31,433 bases of DNA from the IMG/VR virus record IMGVR_UViG_3300025168_000378, positions 1 to 31,433 of that record. One strand, given 5' to 3'. Shown piece by piece: positions 5,320 to 29,167 of this stretch; position 1 is the stretch's first letter; every line of letters starts with the position of its first letter. The notes below the pieces were generated by a model. The model did no database searches. It saw only the letters and a program-made list of their open reading frames with translations, and had not been told where the DNA came from. The DNA is from a virus. Position numbers and translations under genes: made by a program.

Positions 5320-7038
5320 ATGGCAAGATATAAAGGAACAATAATTGCAGGGATACAGCCTTTTGACACAGCTACTTCTAACTTAGCTAATATGAGTTAT
5401 AATTGGAGGGCAAACTATCTAAAGAGTGCGCATACACAAATGCGTTATCAAGTAATATGGAACGGATTAAAAGATGATGAAACTCCTTCGGCTAGTAATT
5501 TTAACTCAAGTAATAATAAAGGAGATATTGTAAATATAGTTTTTAAAATATATGCTACCACTCAATACCCATATCCTGTTACAAATTCAGGGTGGGATTT
5601 AATAGCAACAATAAAAAAATCAAGAGATTTAGCAAACAAAAACTATTTAGCAGGTCAGCCTGCCTTACCAAATCAAAGGTTTACTATAGATATTAGCGCT
5701 TTATGTCAAGACTTGCTTTCTTATAGTTTAGTTCCAATTAAAAAAGGTACTTGGCAAAGTTCTTATTGGGGGGGTATGAATGGAGGAACAGCAGTTCAAG
5801 ATAATGTTACAGAAACAATTAGTAATTATAATGTAACTCCAAATGGCACATATAGGCATATTTTAGTAGAGGCCATTCCTGAGGTTATATTAGCTAATGG
5901 AACTATACAAGAAGTCTCAGGTCAAGGTTATTTATCATTTAATAAAATTGCTGTTATAAATTCTGTTGCTCAATTTGAGAAAGATGCAATATATTATAAC
6001 CTAAAATATATAGTACAAAAATCTTTGTCTAACACAAACAATCCTAAAGGATTTATGAGCTTATGTCCTAATTTTACTCAAACAACTAATGTGCCATTTT
6101 TAAAACAAGTAAGAGAAGATGAAGAAGCTGAGTGGTTATATTGGTGGCAAAAAAATATGGGTAATTCAGGAGACCAAACAGAAAAAGCAAGATTAAAAGT
6201 AGAAACATATTTAAGTAATGGCTCTGCTCAAAACACAATGTATTTAACTGATTTTAATTCTAATTTAGACACAGAAGTACAAGGAACAACAGTTTTTAGA
6301 TTAAATCAAAATAGAGTATGCGTGCAAAATGTTTCGCCTACTTACATAAATGCTAATGCTGTAGATAACTCAGGAAGTACAATTACAAATCAAATAGATA
6401 GCTCTACATCATATTACAAAATACATTTACAATATACAAGTCAGACAAGCGCTGTTATTAGAGCAACAGAATATAGATATTTTGGTATAGATAGAGAAAC
6501 TGCTAATATACCTTATGGCTTTGTAAGATTTTATTGGTTAAATAGAATTGGCGGTATAGATAGTTATACAGCTAAAAGATATGTAACAGAAAGTTTGTCT
6601 GCAAACAAGTCTACAATAGAAACAAAATCTGCAGATAGGACTTGGTATCAAGATGACCAATTATTAGGAGGAACCGCTGTCAATAATGACAACTACATAT
6701 CCAATACAATGAGGGGTGGTAATTTATATAAAGGAGGTAGAGAAGTTCTTAATGTAACAGCACAAAGAAATAATAGTGTGTTTACAGAGCCTTTAAACAA
6801 ACAAACTGCAGAATGGCTAGAAGAAATTATAACATCACCAAATGTTTGGATAGAGATGGATACAGAAGCAACAGCTAGAGGCAATACTGTAAACCCTTTT
6901 CAAAGACCATCAACTAAAGAATACATACCTGTAGTTATAACTAACAACGAGGTAGAGACATTAAATCAAGAATCAGGTTTAGTAAAGTTTAATTTAGAAT
7001 ATACTTTAGCTCATAAAGTACAAACACAAAGAAACTAA
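5320..7038 (+). CDS. Large tail or baseplate protein, unknown function
   Basis: 572 residues, rich in Asn, Thr, Ser and Tyr, with no signal peptide or membrane segment: typical of a beta-rich virion protein. It sits two bases after the lectin-fusion gene and overlaps the next large tail gene by one base. Near the C-terminus TSPNVWIEMDTEA and YIPVVITNNEVETLNQE resemble a folded beta domain ending in EYTLAHKVQTQRN. I do not recognise a named family. A distal tail or receptor-associated role is the likeliest reading from its position. Confidence 0.65.
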   Translation: MARYKGTIIAGIQPFDTATSNLANMSYNWRANYLKSAHTQMRYQVIWNGLKDDETPSASNFNSSNNKGDIVNIVFKIYATTQYPYPVTNSGWDLIATIKKSRDLANKNYLAGQPALPNQRFTIDISALCQDLLSYSLVPIKKGTWQSSYWGGMNGGTAVQDNVTETISNYNVTPNGTYRHILVEAIPEVILANGTIQEVSGQGYLSFNKIAVINSVAQFEKDAIYYNLKYIVQKSLSNTNNPKGFMSLCPNFTQTTNVPFLKQVREDEEAEWLYWWQKNMGNSGDQTEKARLKVETYLSNGSAQNTMYLTDFNSNLDTEVQGTTVFRLNQNRVCVQNVSPTYINANAVDNSGSTITNQIDSSTSYYKIHLQYTSQTSAVIRATEYRYFGIDRETANIPYGFVRFYWLNRIGGIDSYTAKRYVTESLSANKSTIETKSADRTWYQDDQLLGGTAVNNDNYISNTMRGGNLYKGGREVLNVTAQRNNSVFTEPLNKQTAEWLEEIITSPNVWIEMDTEATARGNTVNPFQRPSTKEYIPVVITNNEVETLNQESGLVKFNLEYTLAHKVQTQRN

Positions 7039-9860: not shown

Positions 9861-9872
9861 AAAAAATATAAT

Positions 9873-10055
9873 ATGCCTAATATACAAAATGAAATAAGTG
9901 ATTCAGGAATTGCAGCTACAAGCGGTTTAGAAGTTTATATGACAATAACCATAGACTCTGTTGATTATTTAATTGATATTGTAGCTAATGATAAGTTTGG
10001 TAATTCTCATAAAGTTTTAAGACGAGCTATTAACGATACAATAGAAGAAGATTAG
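9873..10055 (+). CDS. Small hypothetical protein in tail module
   Basis: 60 residues, acidic C-terminus (NDTIEED), with a central beta-hairpin-like stretch VYMTITIDSVDYLIDIVA. It starts 12 bases after the tail-tip gene and ends one base before the gp10-like gene, so it is co-transcribed. No family recognised. Confidence 0.6.
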   Translation: MPNIQNEISDSGIAATSGLEVYMTITIDSVDYLIDIVANDKFGNSHKVLRRAINDTIEED

Positions 10056-16938: not shown

Positions 16939-16952
16939 TAATTATAGATAAG

Positions 16953-16990
16953 GCAGGGGGTTATTAAAAGCTCCCTGCTAATATCTTTTT
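16953..16990 (+). terminator. Intrinsic terminator after the capsid/tail-tube genes
   Basis: GCAGGGGG (16953-16960) pairs with CTCCCTGC (16971-16978) with one G-U pair around a ten-base loop, followed by a T-rich stretch ending in TTTTT (16986-16990). It is placed 15 bases after the stop of the 16357 gene and ends the highly expressed head operon. Confidence 0.8.
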
Positions 16991-21229: not shown

Positions 21230-21281
21230 AAGAGTGAGAGGTTAATAACTTCTCACTCTTTCTATTTATAAGGTTTTTTTT
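21230..21281 (+). terminator. Strong hairpin terminator or attenuator
   Basis: AAGAGTGAGAGG at 21230-21241 pairs with its partner ending at 21260 (CTTCTCACTCTT) with one G-U pair; the pairing can extend through TTA/TAA to fifteen base pairs. TCTATTT follows at once and eight T at 21274-21281. It can end the late transcript from the lysis genes, but it also lies in the leader of the promoter at 21152-21181. Confidence 0.75.
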
Positions 21282-21314
21282 ATTATATATTTACTAAAAC
21301 TAAAATTATAAATT

Positions 21315-24197: not shown

Positions 24198-24428
24198 ATG
24201 ACAGAAGAAGGAATAAATGCTGTTAATTGTTTTTTAGCATTAAAAGAAGAAAGAAAAAACATAAAAAAAAACACAATAGATATGAATGATTATTTTTTAT
24301 ATAGCGGCAGGCAAGAGTATAATAATAAATTAACTTACTTAATTCCTGATTATAGAAACAAACAAGAAGTATTTGTTAAAAATGATATGACAAAATATGT
24401 TTTAAAAAATTACCGAAAATTAAATTAA
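24198..24428 (+). CDS. Hypothetical early protein
   Basis: 76 residues, ATG 24198, five bases after the XRE gene. Lysine-rich, with EERKNIKKNTIDMNDYFLYS and KNDMTKYVLKNYRKLN at the end; no cysteine cluster or membrane span. No family recognised. Confidence 0.55.
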   Translation: MTEEGINAVNCFLALKEERKNIKKNTIDMNDYFLYSGRQEYNNKLTYLIPDYRNKQEVFVKNDMTKYVLKNYRKLN

Positions 24429-24447: not shown

Positions 24448-24699
24448 ATGGCAGATAAAAATTATGTAGCAAGTAGTATCAAGAAAGTTACTACACAGTA
24501 TGGAGACTTGTTTAATGCAAGCTTTAAAGTAGAAGACCTACAAAAGATGGCAAAGAGAGGTTGGGTAAATATTACAATAGCAGAACGTAGAGAAGTTTCT
24601 GAGAAAGGAGCAACTCACTATGCTTATGAGAATACTTACGAGCCACCTAAACCTGACACGGTAGACAATACAAGTACAGAAGGAGATTTACCATTCTAA
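24448..24699 (+). CDS. Small protein with SSB-like acidic C-terminal tip
   Basis: 83 residues. ASSIKKVTTQYGDLFNASFK (about 8-27), GWVNITIAERREVSEKGATH and YAYENTYEPP suggest a small beta-rich core; the last residues TEGDLPF copy the acidic D-x-P-F tip that single-strand DNA-binding proteins use to recruit partners. A full OB-fold is not evident at this length, so an SSB-like or replisome-interacting role is inferred. An AAAT-repeat leader (24429-24447) suggests strong translation. It is the last gene before the structured element at 24702-24770. Confidence 0.55.
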   Translation: MADKNYVASSIKKVTTQYGDLFNASFKVEDLQKMAKRGWVNITIAERREVSEKGATHYAYENTYEPPKPDTVDNTSTEGDLPF

Positions 24700-24701
24700 A
24701 T

Positions 24702-24770
24702 TTTAGAGAGGGGGAAGGCACAACGCCTATGATATAACCTGTATTAAATGTTTTTAACCCCCTCTTTAAA
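24702..24770 (+). ncRNA. Structured intergenic element A (nested hairpins)
   Basis: A 13-bp outer helix (24702-24714 with 24758-24770, one G-U pair) contains an inner AGGC (24716-24719) / GCCT (24725-24728) hairpin with loop ACAAC, then 29 unpaired bases with GATA at 24731. There is only a short T run after it, so it is at best an atypical terminator. It sits between the SSB-tip gene and the promoter at 24797. Element B at 26613-26680 has the same architecture. Confidence 0.55.
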
Positions 24771-24796
24771 TTATCTAAAAACAACTATAAAATTAT

Positions 24797-24827
24797 TTGT
24801 TAGTTTCATATATTATTCTTATATTTG
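24797..24827 (+). promoter_or_regulatory. Consensus Bacteroidota promoter for the peptidase/replication genes
   Basis: TTG at 24797-24799 (inside TTTG), a 20-base spacer and TATATTTG at 24820-24827. The expected start of transcription is near 24834, about 34 bases before ATG 24868. Confidence 0.75.
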
Positions 24828-24867
24828 TATAACTAACTAATTACTAACTAACACTCACAAAAACACT

Positions 24868-25953
24868 ATGACAAAAAAATTACAAAAACGCAAGCAATTA
24901 CTAATAGACACATTATCAGTTCAAACCTCAAGCGGTAAAGAAGAACAGATGATACAGTACATTATTAATTTCTGCATCAAGAACGTCCCCACAGCAAAAA
25001 TAGAAGTAGACAGTAACAACATATATGTAACCAAAGGTGACTCAGACATTTACCCTTGCATTGTTTCGCATACAGATACTGTACACGACATACACAAACA
25101 CTACAAAGTTTATGACGACGACAACTGTTTGTTTGCATTTAATGCAGAATCAGGTACACAAGTAGGTGTAGGTGGTGACGACAAGGTAGGTATATGGCTA
25201 GCACTACAGATGTTATTATCACAAGACATTATCAAGTGTGCTTTCTTTCACTCAGAAGAGATAGGTTGTGTAGGTAGCCGACAAGCTAATATGTCTTGGT
25301 TTAAAGACGTAGGTTATTGCTTGCAAGGTGACAGACGAGGTAACACAGACTTTGTCAACTCTATCAGCGGTACACTATACAGTCTTGCTTTTGCAGAAGA
25401 CATTGTGCCTATCATATCCAAGTACGGTTATCAAGAAACATCAGGTGCTATCACAGACGTAGGTCAGCTAGCAGAGAACGGTATAGGTGTATGTGTAGCT
25501 AATATGTCTTGCGGTTACTTTGCGCCACACTCAGACCAAGAGATTGTAGAGTTCCTAGACGCTAACAACTGCCTAGATATGATTACCCATATTGTCAACG
25601 AGCTAGGTTGTACGCTATACACACACGAATACACTAACAAGTGGAACGACTTAGATTGGGGTGACTTTAGTGGTGCTAGCAGAAACTATTGGTTCCAAGA
25701 TATGCAAAAAGACTCAGAGGTTGTAGTAGGCGAAGATGGTGATGAGACCTGTTACTACTGTGAGGGCGAGCTAAAAGAAAGCGAGTATGGTGATGAGTTT
25801 AGGTTTTGTGGCGACTGCAATAGTGATGTTATAGTAAAGTACGAAGATGATGACTATGATGACTTTGAAGATGTGTCTGACAATTATGATGGCTCTATGG
25901 CTCATAAGCAAATAGTAAACAGCCACCTATCTTCTTACTATAAAAATAAATAA
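24868..25953 (+). CDS. M20-type metallopeptidase (peptidase T-like) with C-terminal zinc ribbon
   Basis: 361 residues. M20 peptidases use two zinc ions to cleave short peptides. The metal and catalytic residues are present in order: SHTD (His68, Asp70), GVGGDDKVG (Asp104), HSEEIG (Glu130, Glu131), QGD (Asp155) and FAPHSD (His221). The layout suits peptidase T or a related aminopeptidase without a clear inserted dimerisation domain. After about 290 a separate zinc ribbon follows: CYYC (295, 298) and CGDC (314, 317), then an acidic tail. This combination is unusual. Codons favour GAC, AAC and TAC more than in neighbouring structural genes, a possible sign of transfer. It has its own consensus promoter. 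Confidence 0.85.
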   Translation: MTKKLQKRKQLLIDTLSVQTSSGKEEQMIQYIINFCIKNVPTAKIEVDSNNIYVTKGDSDIYPCIVSHTDTVHDIHKHYKVYDDDNCLFAFNAESGTQVGVGGDDKVGIWLALQMLLSQDIIKCAFFHSEEIGCVGSRQANMSWFKDVGYCLQGDRRGNTDFVNSISGTLYSLAFAEDIVPIISKYGYQETSGAITDVGQLAENGIGVCVANMSCGYFAPHSDQEIVEFLDANNCLDMITHIVNELGCTLYTHEYTNKWNDLDWGDFSGASRNYWFQDMQKDSEVVVGEDGDETCYYCEGELKESEYGDEFRFCGDCNSDVIVKYEDDDYDDFEDVSDNYDGSMAHKQIVNSHLSSYYKNK

Positions 25954-25954
25954 T

Positions 25955-26605
25955 ATGGCTAAGAGATTTACAGATACAGATAAGTGGAAGAAAGGTTTTA
26001 TCCGTAACCTTCCTACAAAATACAAACTGCTGTGGTTATATATACTAGACGATTGTAACCACGCAGGAGTATGGGAGACAGACTTTGAGGTAGCGTCAAT
26101 TAGAATTGGCAGTAAGATTAGCGAGAAGGAAGCTATAAAACATTTTGCATCACAGATAAGAATCTTTGATGATGGCGAGAGATGGTTTGTTCCAAAGTTT
26201 ATAGAGTTTCAGTATGGCGAGCTAAATGCCAACTCAAGACCTCATCAGGCAGTTATAAAGCTAATAGACAAATACGACCTATATAACATTAAGGGCGTAA
26301 GTGTGGCAGAGATATCAGATTCTGACAAACCTGTCTTAAAACGCTTTAAAAAGCCATCTATGGAGGATTTAGAGCTATATTGTCAGGAAAGACAAAACAA
26401 AGTAGATGTGTTTAAGTTTTTTAACTTTTATGAAAGTAACGGTTGGAAGGTTGGAAAAAACCCAATGAAAGATTGGAAGGCATCAATAAGAACTTGGGAG
26501 TCTAACAGCATAAATAAGACACAAGTTAAAGAAGGCAAACTGCAGAGTCAGATAAATGCTTGGCAGGGAGCAAAGGATATAATTAAACAGCAACTAAATA
26601 AATAA
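25955..26605 (+). CDS. Replisome organiser-like replication initiation protein
   Basis: 216 residues. The N-terminal domain (KWKKGFIRNLPTKYKLLWLY, then DDCNHAGVWETDFEVASIRI) has a winged-helix-like pattern typical of phage replication proteins of this host group. The C-terminal KPSMEDLELYCQERQNKVD, FFNFYESNGWKVGKNPMKDW and KASIRTWE match the P-[ST]-x-E-x-x-x-Y ... F-x-x-Y-x-x-x-x-W ... D-W-K-x-x-[IV]-R-x-W ending of DnaD/replisome-organiser-like proteins that recruit the host helicase. It starts one base after the peptidase stop. No DNA polymerase or helicase is visible, so host machinery is presumably recruited. Confidence 0.75.
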   Translation: MAKRFTDTDKWKKGFIRNLPTKYKLLWLYILDDCNHAGVWETDFEVASIRIGSKISEKEAIKHFASQIRIFDDGERWFVPKFIEFQYGELNANSRPHQAVIKLIDKYDLYNIKGVSVAEISDSDKPVLKRFKKPSMEDLELYCQERQNKVDVFKFFNFYESNGWKVGKNPMKDWKASIRTWESNSINKTQVKEGKLQSQINAWQGAKDIIKQQLNK

Positions 26606-26612
26606 AACAAGT

Positions 26613-26680
26613 TATTACGAGGGAGGGCATAAAGGCATAAGCCAACGATAAGTTAATACTCTTGCCTTCCCTTTGTAATA
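26613..26680 (+). ncRNA. Structured intergenic element B (nested hairpins)
   Basis: Outer helix 26613-26629 with 26663-26680: 17 base pairs, two G-U pairs and a single bulged T at 26672. Inside, GGC (26634-26636) and GCC (26641-26643) close an ATAA loop, then 19 unpaired bases with GATA at 26647. No T tract follows; ATG 26695 lies 14 bases downstream, so it may control translation or mRNA processing. Its architecture matches element A. Confidence 0.6.
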
Positions 26681-26694
26681 TTAAAAATAAAACT

Positions 26695-26964
26695 ATGAAA
26701 GCACAAATAATAAATACTTATGGTGACGTTAAAAGCGTTAAGCCAAAAAATAATAAGACATTCAGCCTTAAAGAGTTACAATCATTTGTAGATGGTTACA
26801 TACAAATTGTAAAGACAAGAGATGATAGGTTAATGATAATGAATGAAGAAGGTAAGATTAACAATTTGCCATACAATGAAATTGCTACAAGCCTATACAT
26901 ATACGGTACTCACGATGTAGTAGTTGGTGATGTGTTAGTAACTGACAAAGAACTTATAAGCTAA
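26695..26964 (+). CDS. DUF3846-like protein
   Basis: 89 residues from ATG 26695. The TTG at 26662 would place the start inside the hairpin arm and is rejected. FSLKELQSFVDGYIQIVKTR (about 23-42), MIMNEEGKINNLPYNEIATS (about 47-66) and VVVGDVLV match DUF3846 (L-x-x-L-Q-x-x-V-x-G-x-I, N-E-E-G-x-x-x-x-x-P-x-N-x-x-A-T, G-D-V-L-V), a widespread family in phages with unknown function. It overlaps the next gene by one base. Confidence 0.85.
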   Translation: MKAQIINTYGDVKSVKPKNNKTFSLKELQSFVDGYIQIVKTRDDRLMIMNEEGKINNLPYNEIATSLYIYGTHDVVVGDVLVTDKELIS

Positions 26965-29094: not shown

Positions 29095-29126
29095 GCTTAC
29101 TACCTATATATGGTATTTTTGATTTC

Positions 29127-29167
29127 CTATGCGTGCATAGTATTTTACTGTGCGTGCATAGTATTTT
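29127..29167 (+). repeat. Two palindromic direct repeats spaced 21 bases
   Basis: TGCGTGCATAGTATTTT occurs at 29130-29146 and 29151-29167, a 21-base period equal to two helical turns. The first copy extends to a perfect inverted repeat, CTATGC-GT-GCATAG (29127-29140); the second has CTGTGC in the left arm. Good candidates for dimeric protein binding. Confidence 0.85.

Follow-up and report, generated by a model that had tools for sequence, protein, structure and literature searches.

The lambda nut and HK022 put sites are phage antitermination RNA sites, structured elements of early mRNA that are recognized in cis, and nut also contains a short hairpin (boxB). T7-type RNase III sites are stem elements located between early phage cistrons, while the MS2 coat operator and the T4 gp32 and RegA sites are folded targets of a binding factor, located close to a start codon and provided with conserved unpaired bases. 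Outside model phages, few compact phage-specific structured RNAs have been described. The two intergenic elements analyzed here, A and B, resemble each of these systems in part. They are structured sites in early phage mRNA as nut and put are, and boxB of nut is likewise a short hairpin, but they lie within operons rather than regularly right behind an early promoter, and a boxA-like element is not established. With T7-type RNase III sites they share stems between early cistrons; those sites, however, occur one per cistron, whereas A and B are single copy and have long conserved unpaired cores. They would work like the MS2 coat, T4 gp32, and RegA sites, although A and B are larger, possess a long closing helix, and have a partner protein that is only a candidate. 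The families in Rfam 15 are the same kind of object, structured RNAs kept by covariation, but none of them matches. Selection keeps A and B as RNA amid changing surroundings, so that their function should be testable with 70–90-nt constructs, and both point to gene control or host interaction at a level not yet explored.

The DNA under study (the window) is a single viral record of 31,433 bases from an uncultured marine phage. Its relatives at the DNA and protein levels are nearly all uncultured IMG/VR contigs (L numbers below), and only distant proteins are held in common with named phages, including Cellulophaga phages. The promoters of the window fit the consensus TTG-N20-TAnnTTTG, which we take to be the Bacteroidota form; together with the Cellulophaga phages among the distant protein relatives, they make a Bacteroidota host likely. 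ARAGORN detects no tRNA or tmRNA genes in the window. A replication-origin signal at the region was considered and rejected, as the sign of the GC skew stays the same throughout it. The features of the region are collected in Table 1.

Table 1 Features of the A and B region (window coordinates)
Feature	Position	Strand	Basis or remark
"YFxYSG" small protein gene	24198..24428	+	family often directly 3′ of A or B in other phages
Small protein gene, SSB-like acidic tip (EGDLPF)	24448..24699	+	A comes after its stop codon
A outer helix P1, 5′ strand, purine-rich	24702..24714	+	predicted fold; 10/10 long-form P1 pairs change on both sides
A hairpin P2 (GGC ACAAC GCC)	24716..24728	+	predicted fold
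A AU-rich hairpin P3	24730..24746	+	predicted fold; long form is GG-nUAAGAA-CC
A conserved strand UAUUAAAUGUUUU, just 5′ of P1 closing strand	24742..24754	+	relatives compared
A outer helix P1, 3′ strand	24758..24770	+	predicted fold
Bacteroidota-type promoter (TTG-N20-TAnnTTTG)	24797..24827	+	29 nt 3′ of A, for peptidase operon; consensus from general knowledge
DUF4373-type gene	25955..26605	+	upstream of B; name from annotation of BLAST matches, without Pfam match
B outer helix (P0 UAUUACG + P1 AGGGAGGGCA), 5′ strand	26613..26629	+	predicted fold; covariation
B invariant CAUAAAGGC	26628..26636	+	19/19 aligned sequences
B hairpin P2 (GGC AUAA GCC)	26634..26643	+	predicted fold
B conserved GUUAAUACUCUUG	26652..26664	+	core UUAAUACUCUUG invariant 19/19, partly through choice of search pattern
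B outer helix, 3′ strand	26663..26680	+	predicted fold
DUF3846 protein gene	26695..26964	+	Pfam PF12957, E 6e-13; ATG 14 nt 3′ of B

The first-pass annotation had described nested-hairpin folds at A and B, and folding places both where it had put them. A is predicted to form a 13-bp outer helix around a GGC/GCC hairpin with a minimum free energy (MFE) of −26.4 (z −3.62), equalled by 1 of 200 shuffles. B has a 17-bp outer helix with one bulge and a GGC-AUAA-GCC hairpin, and its MFE of −26.4 (z −4.34) is equalled by none of 200. The minus strands fold more weakly (z −1.76 for A and −1.46 for B), and a scan of the whole sequence in 4,180 windows ranks both elements among the top intergenic fold signals. 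The same annotation had assigned each element a single-stranded 3′ segment, a description that has to be amended for A, where part of the segment pairs as the predicted hairpin P3. The GATA that it had found in both is a chance resemblance: relatives have CAATAACC (A) and CATAACAG (B) at that spot.

B lies directly behind the DUF4373-type gene in the window's clade, and a DNA pattern of its core retrieved copies from phages with unrelated surroundings. There it follows the DNA polymerase gene (L094, L126, L130, L132, L135, L137, and L139), and it is also present in L092, L093, and L097. Members of the family share an outer helix, a conserved CAUAAA, a short GGC/GCC hairpin with the loop AUAA, AUUU, or CUUU, and a conserved GUUAAUACUCUU. 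The constancy of CAUAAAGGC and UUAAUACUCUUG stems partly from the search pattern, which required both; in the independently found L149 and L154 they are slightly relaxed, with U in place of C within CAUAAAGGC and a U-A closing pair. Searching a non-redundant set with a covariance model of nine members (R1) gives 22 B loci with E-values of 1e-10 or lower, spread over several phage groups, and in a larger set the best other match, reverse complements of true sites aside, has an E of 0.15. Columns assigned to helices are 96.5% paired and hold 37 two-sided changes compared to 10.3 in shuffles, and their covariation score lies above that of every one of 500 shuffles; the alignment was fitted to the structure, which makes the counts lean towards it. 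Shifting the partner by one to three columns lowers pairing to 43–63%. Between groups the outer helix is nonetheless visibly rewritten (GGACGGGC/GUCCGUCC, GGGGUGAGC/GCUCACCC, and GGGGUGAAC/GUUCACCC). A constant core in unrelated contexts, together with compensatory changes, shows that the B copies form one family of structured RNA. A stop-codon read-through element behind the DNA polymerase gene was considered and discarded; by eye, the post-stop frame is open through B in L094 and closed in L130.

A occurs in two forms. The short form of the window stands behind the SSB-like gene throughout the window's clade, and in L025 and L019 it keeps to that gene although the next gene there is another. 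A covariance model of nine clade members (R2) led to divergent copies elsewhere (L008:6571-6654 and L092:2249-2332), which have AAUAUUAAAUGUU in common, and a search with AAUAUUAAAUGUU gave further members. In this long form, P2 stacks directly on P1 and is followed by a linker of about 10 bases, P3 with a UAAGAA loop, UAAUAUUAAAUGUUU, and the closing strand. The P2 stem changes from GGC/GCC to GCAC/GUGC in L014 and to GGAC/GUCC in L020, with the ACNAC loop unchanged, and UUAAAUG is kept in nearly all members, L020 being the clear exception. A model of three long forms (R3) recovers the other long forms with E-values from 1e-15 to 1e-6. It matches short forms more weakly at the element's coordinates, from E 0.0016 in L019 down to E 2.6 in the window, while R2 detects the long copies in L008 and L092 with an E of 0.005. 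Each model thus locates the other form at the right place, and the two constitute one family; the window copy by itself falls within noise for R3, and the link between the forms runs via L019, L007, and L025. Long forms show 54 two-sided changes compared to 16.8 in shuffles, the covariation score being reached by none of 500. All ten P1 pairs change on both sides, a hand-made alignment agrees, and shifting the pairing partner abolishes the signal in A as in B. A pseudoknot between linker and P3 loop (CUUA/UAAG) fits L149 and L140 but, by eye, lacks covariation in L152, and was rejected.

Because the base pairs of A and B are kept by compensating mutations, the RNA fold itself matters, and both are almost certainly genuine structured RNAs. 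Covariance searches, which the first-pass annotation had proposed as a check, thus bring out covariation and further examples for both elements, neither of which is in Rfam. Its idea of one repeated RNA survives as far as both are structured, covarying, and found in many further phages, but not in the identity of the two. R1 has no match to A, R3 has none to B, and R2 yields only noise on B (L092/L095, E 5). Since the models do not cross-detect, we interpret A and B as separate families built alike: in each, a long helix closes the element, a short GGC-like hairpin lies inside it, and a conserved A/U-rich strand immediately precedes the 3′ strand of that helix. An identical hairpin, GGCAAUUUUGCC, occurs in L008 A and L135 B, and in L149 and L154 B follows immediately 3′ of A, where R1 detects it at E 3e-18 and 2e-16, neither locus being in the training set. 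The proposed bracketing of the peptidase by A and B is particular to the window's clade: L025 has A before the DUF4373-type gene and no peptidase, the A copy of L008 is found 1.3 kb 3′ of its B, and L149 and L154 have the two side by side.

Paired columns contain 47 G-U and no A-C combinations in B and 25 and 1, respectively, in A. As the opposite strand would give the reverse, the selected molecule is very probably RNA in the gene sense. A and B sit between early or replication-cluster genes and at many loci occupy the whole gap, starting 0–9 nt after a stop codon and ending 11–28 nt before a start codon. A Bacteroidota-type promoter precedes A in L140, L146, and L152, which places A in a 5′ leader there. 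Each element occurs once per contig, even in contigs of 36–82 kb, whereas a mobile repeat of the REP, MITE, or IS200/605-like kind would be present in several copies per genome.

The only DNA match between the window and L092/L095, over about 13 kb compared, spans 26602-26691 on the plus strand (93.3% identity over 90 bases) and comprises B with short flanks, which indicates that B travels as a cassette of about 90 bp. The A copies of L092 and L154 are 94% identical over 52 bases. A and B thus move between phages, apparently separately. The exact B pattern has no match in 84,980 bacterial and archaeal genomes, a search that variants would escape; within that limit, the result favors restriction of B to phages. 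Blastn against named phages gives only chance-level matches for both elements. Searches with Rfam 15 place nothing over A or B, either in the window (all 4,227 families, E ≤ 5; a single irrelevant eukaryotic scaRNA match lies elsewhere) or in the relatives (E ≤ 1), and none of the titles and abstracts returned by a literature search concerns them. As judged from sequence comparison, A and B are previously unlisted families of phage structured RNA. Lineage counts behind these comparisons are small and non-independent, several contigs are fragments, some models derive from few sequences, and the E-values are rough.

What these RNAs do is a more tentative matter, although the regulatory role suggested in the first-pass annotation is plausible. 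We favor, with a probability of about 0.4, factor-binding cis-acting structured RNAs of uncultured, probably Bacteroidota phages. A and B would lie in the sense strand of early or replication-cluster mRNAs and span the space from stop to start codon, with the long helix closing a conserved, mostly unpaired core that could serve as the landing site for a trans-acting factor, either a phage or a host protein. Once bound, this factor would control the flanking cistrons at the level of translation, stability, or read-through, and A and B may respond to one factor or to two linked ones. We infer cis action, a protein rather than a metabolite ligand, and the effect on flanking cistrons: cis action is favored by positions inside operons, a cis element fits the combination of movable placement and single copy, and the conserved unpaired core makes a simple terminator or nuclease site less likely. 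Counting against this reading, the gene 3′ of the element differs between clades, and a look for alternative pairings brought up none.

Several of the same observations can be read otherwise. Were A a regulated terminator or attenuator, with P1 as the terminator stem, the core deciding its formation, and B a separate, non-terminating element, one would expect its location in the window between a gene end and a promoter. Five or more T follow the closing strand in 6 of 17 A members (L014, L025, L092, L144, L147, and L152) compared to 4.6% of background sites, and A in L146, L147, and L152 has a promoter or promoter-like site on one side and the start codon on the other. The window copy, however, continues with TTTAAATT and no U-run, a scan allowing only loops of 3–8 finds no terminator-like site in the window, and the members with U-runs are not all independent. 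B lacks a U-run in 15 members. We consider this account of A unlikely. Another possibility is that early mRNAs are cut between cistrons at A and B, either by the elements themselves as self-cleaving ribozymes or by a nuclease that processes them there. Intercistronic positions flush with stop and start codons and a conserved core within a helix would suit this; no Rfam ribozyme matches, though, and about 20 conserved unpaired bases are needless for a simple double-strand nuclease site, which renders this possibility quite improbable.

The conserved unpaired core, variable closing helix, and tandem placement are also what small-molecule riboswitches of early phage genes would display. Yet the downstream genes change, with no consistent gene or pathway, which disfavors a classical metabolite riboswitch; no Rfam riboswitch matches, and neither alternative pairing nor an expression platform was identified in A or B, so that we hold such a switch to be very doubtful. 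We give equally little credence to the idea that early mRNAs contain a trans-acting phage RNA (a decoy, anti-defence, or small RNA), or that the elements are selfish cassettes of RNA. Single copies, changing neighbors, a unit of about 90 bp moving between unrelated phages, and the promoter of its own before A in three loci agree with this, but most copies lie inside operons without their own promoter or terminator, 11–28 nt from the next ATG, and a selfish element should be present more than once. Chance folding of GC-rich intergenic sequence comes to mind for an AT-rich genome, in which any GC-rich inverted repeat is conspicuous. It is already refuted by the covariation in both elements, and recurrence in unrelated contexts and matches of E ~1e-16 and better to loci not used for training also speak against it, leaving its likelihood negligible.

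If A and B are factor-binding cis-acting sites, position would nominate the YFKYSG protein or the SSB-like protein as the candidate partner. The YFKYSG gene is next 3′ of A or B in about six lineages (L094/L130/L135/L139, L140/L146, L147/L152, L149, and L154, with L097 162 nt away), and the family accounts for 12 of the 231 genes in these loci (~5%). Its motif D.YF.YSG..E (YFKYSG..E), often accompanied by NDMSKYKL, occurs in the window and in L094, L097, L130, L135, L140, L146, L147, L149, and L154. The association with the elements is partly shared synteny. In the window the YFKYSG gene lies upstream of A, with the SSB-like gene in between, and not beside B. The protein belongs to no confident Pfam or PHROG family, tblastn against named phages returns only chance-level matches, and its AlphaFold2 model of two helices (pTM 0.29) is uninformative.

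Further stem-closed elements recur among the relatives. Element C (GGAAGNACAAAGGUCAGGUUAAUUCUUGAGCC), a third kind, is found in L006 (1418-1467), L021, L067, L116, L017, and L111, in most cases right after the peptidase promoter, and its outer stem is rewritten as GAGAGG/CCUCUC, AAGUGG/CCACUU, and GGGAGG/CCUCCC; AAAGG...GGUUAAU.CUUG is common to C and B. Element D (GCAAACAnUGnACA ... CGUAAACU) occurs in L067 (about 6050-6130), L111, and L117 with differing outer stems, and in L111 and L117 C is nested within D. Element E, of ~105 nt, is located in the ssb-peptidase spacer or behind an ssb-like gene (L017, about 9870-9985; L036, about 2550-2660), and its outer stem is GGGAGG/CCUCCC or GGGGGG/CCCCCC. 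The ssb-peptidase spacer (window 24700-24867) differs between relatives: it may hold A, C, D, or E, whose 5′ stem strand is rich in purines, or be empty; other simple stems are seen there in L016 and L023 and none in L008. This spacer appears to be a fixed slot for interchangeable RNA modules. Uncultured, probably Bacteroidota phages might more generally carry a set of interchangeable RNA cassettes that move horizontally (at least three further kinds besides A and B), each with its own conserved core and placed in fixed early intercistronic slots, as a phage-specific layer of RNA control or counter-defence without a described counterpart, a broader proposal that we regard as speculative and somewhat unlikely.

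Elsewhere in the window, a gene gap at 29126-29160 contains the near-perfect palindrome CTATGCGTGCATAGTATTTTACTGTGCGTGCATAG, which folds with a z of about −5.4 on the plus strand. At 21230-21290 and 16951-16990 there are strong hairpins of an ordinary kind that, with T-rich stretches behind them, resemble terminators.
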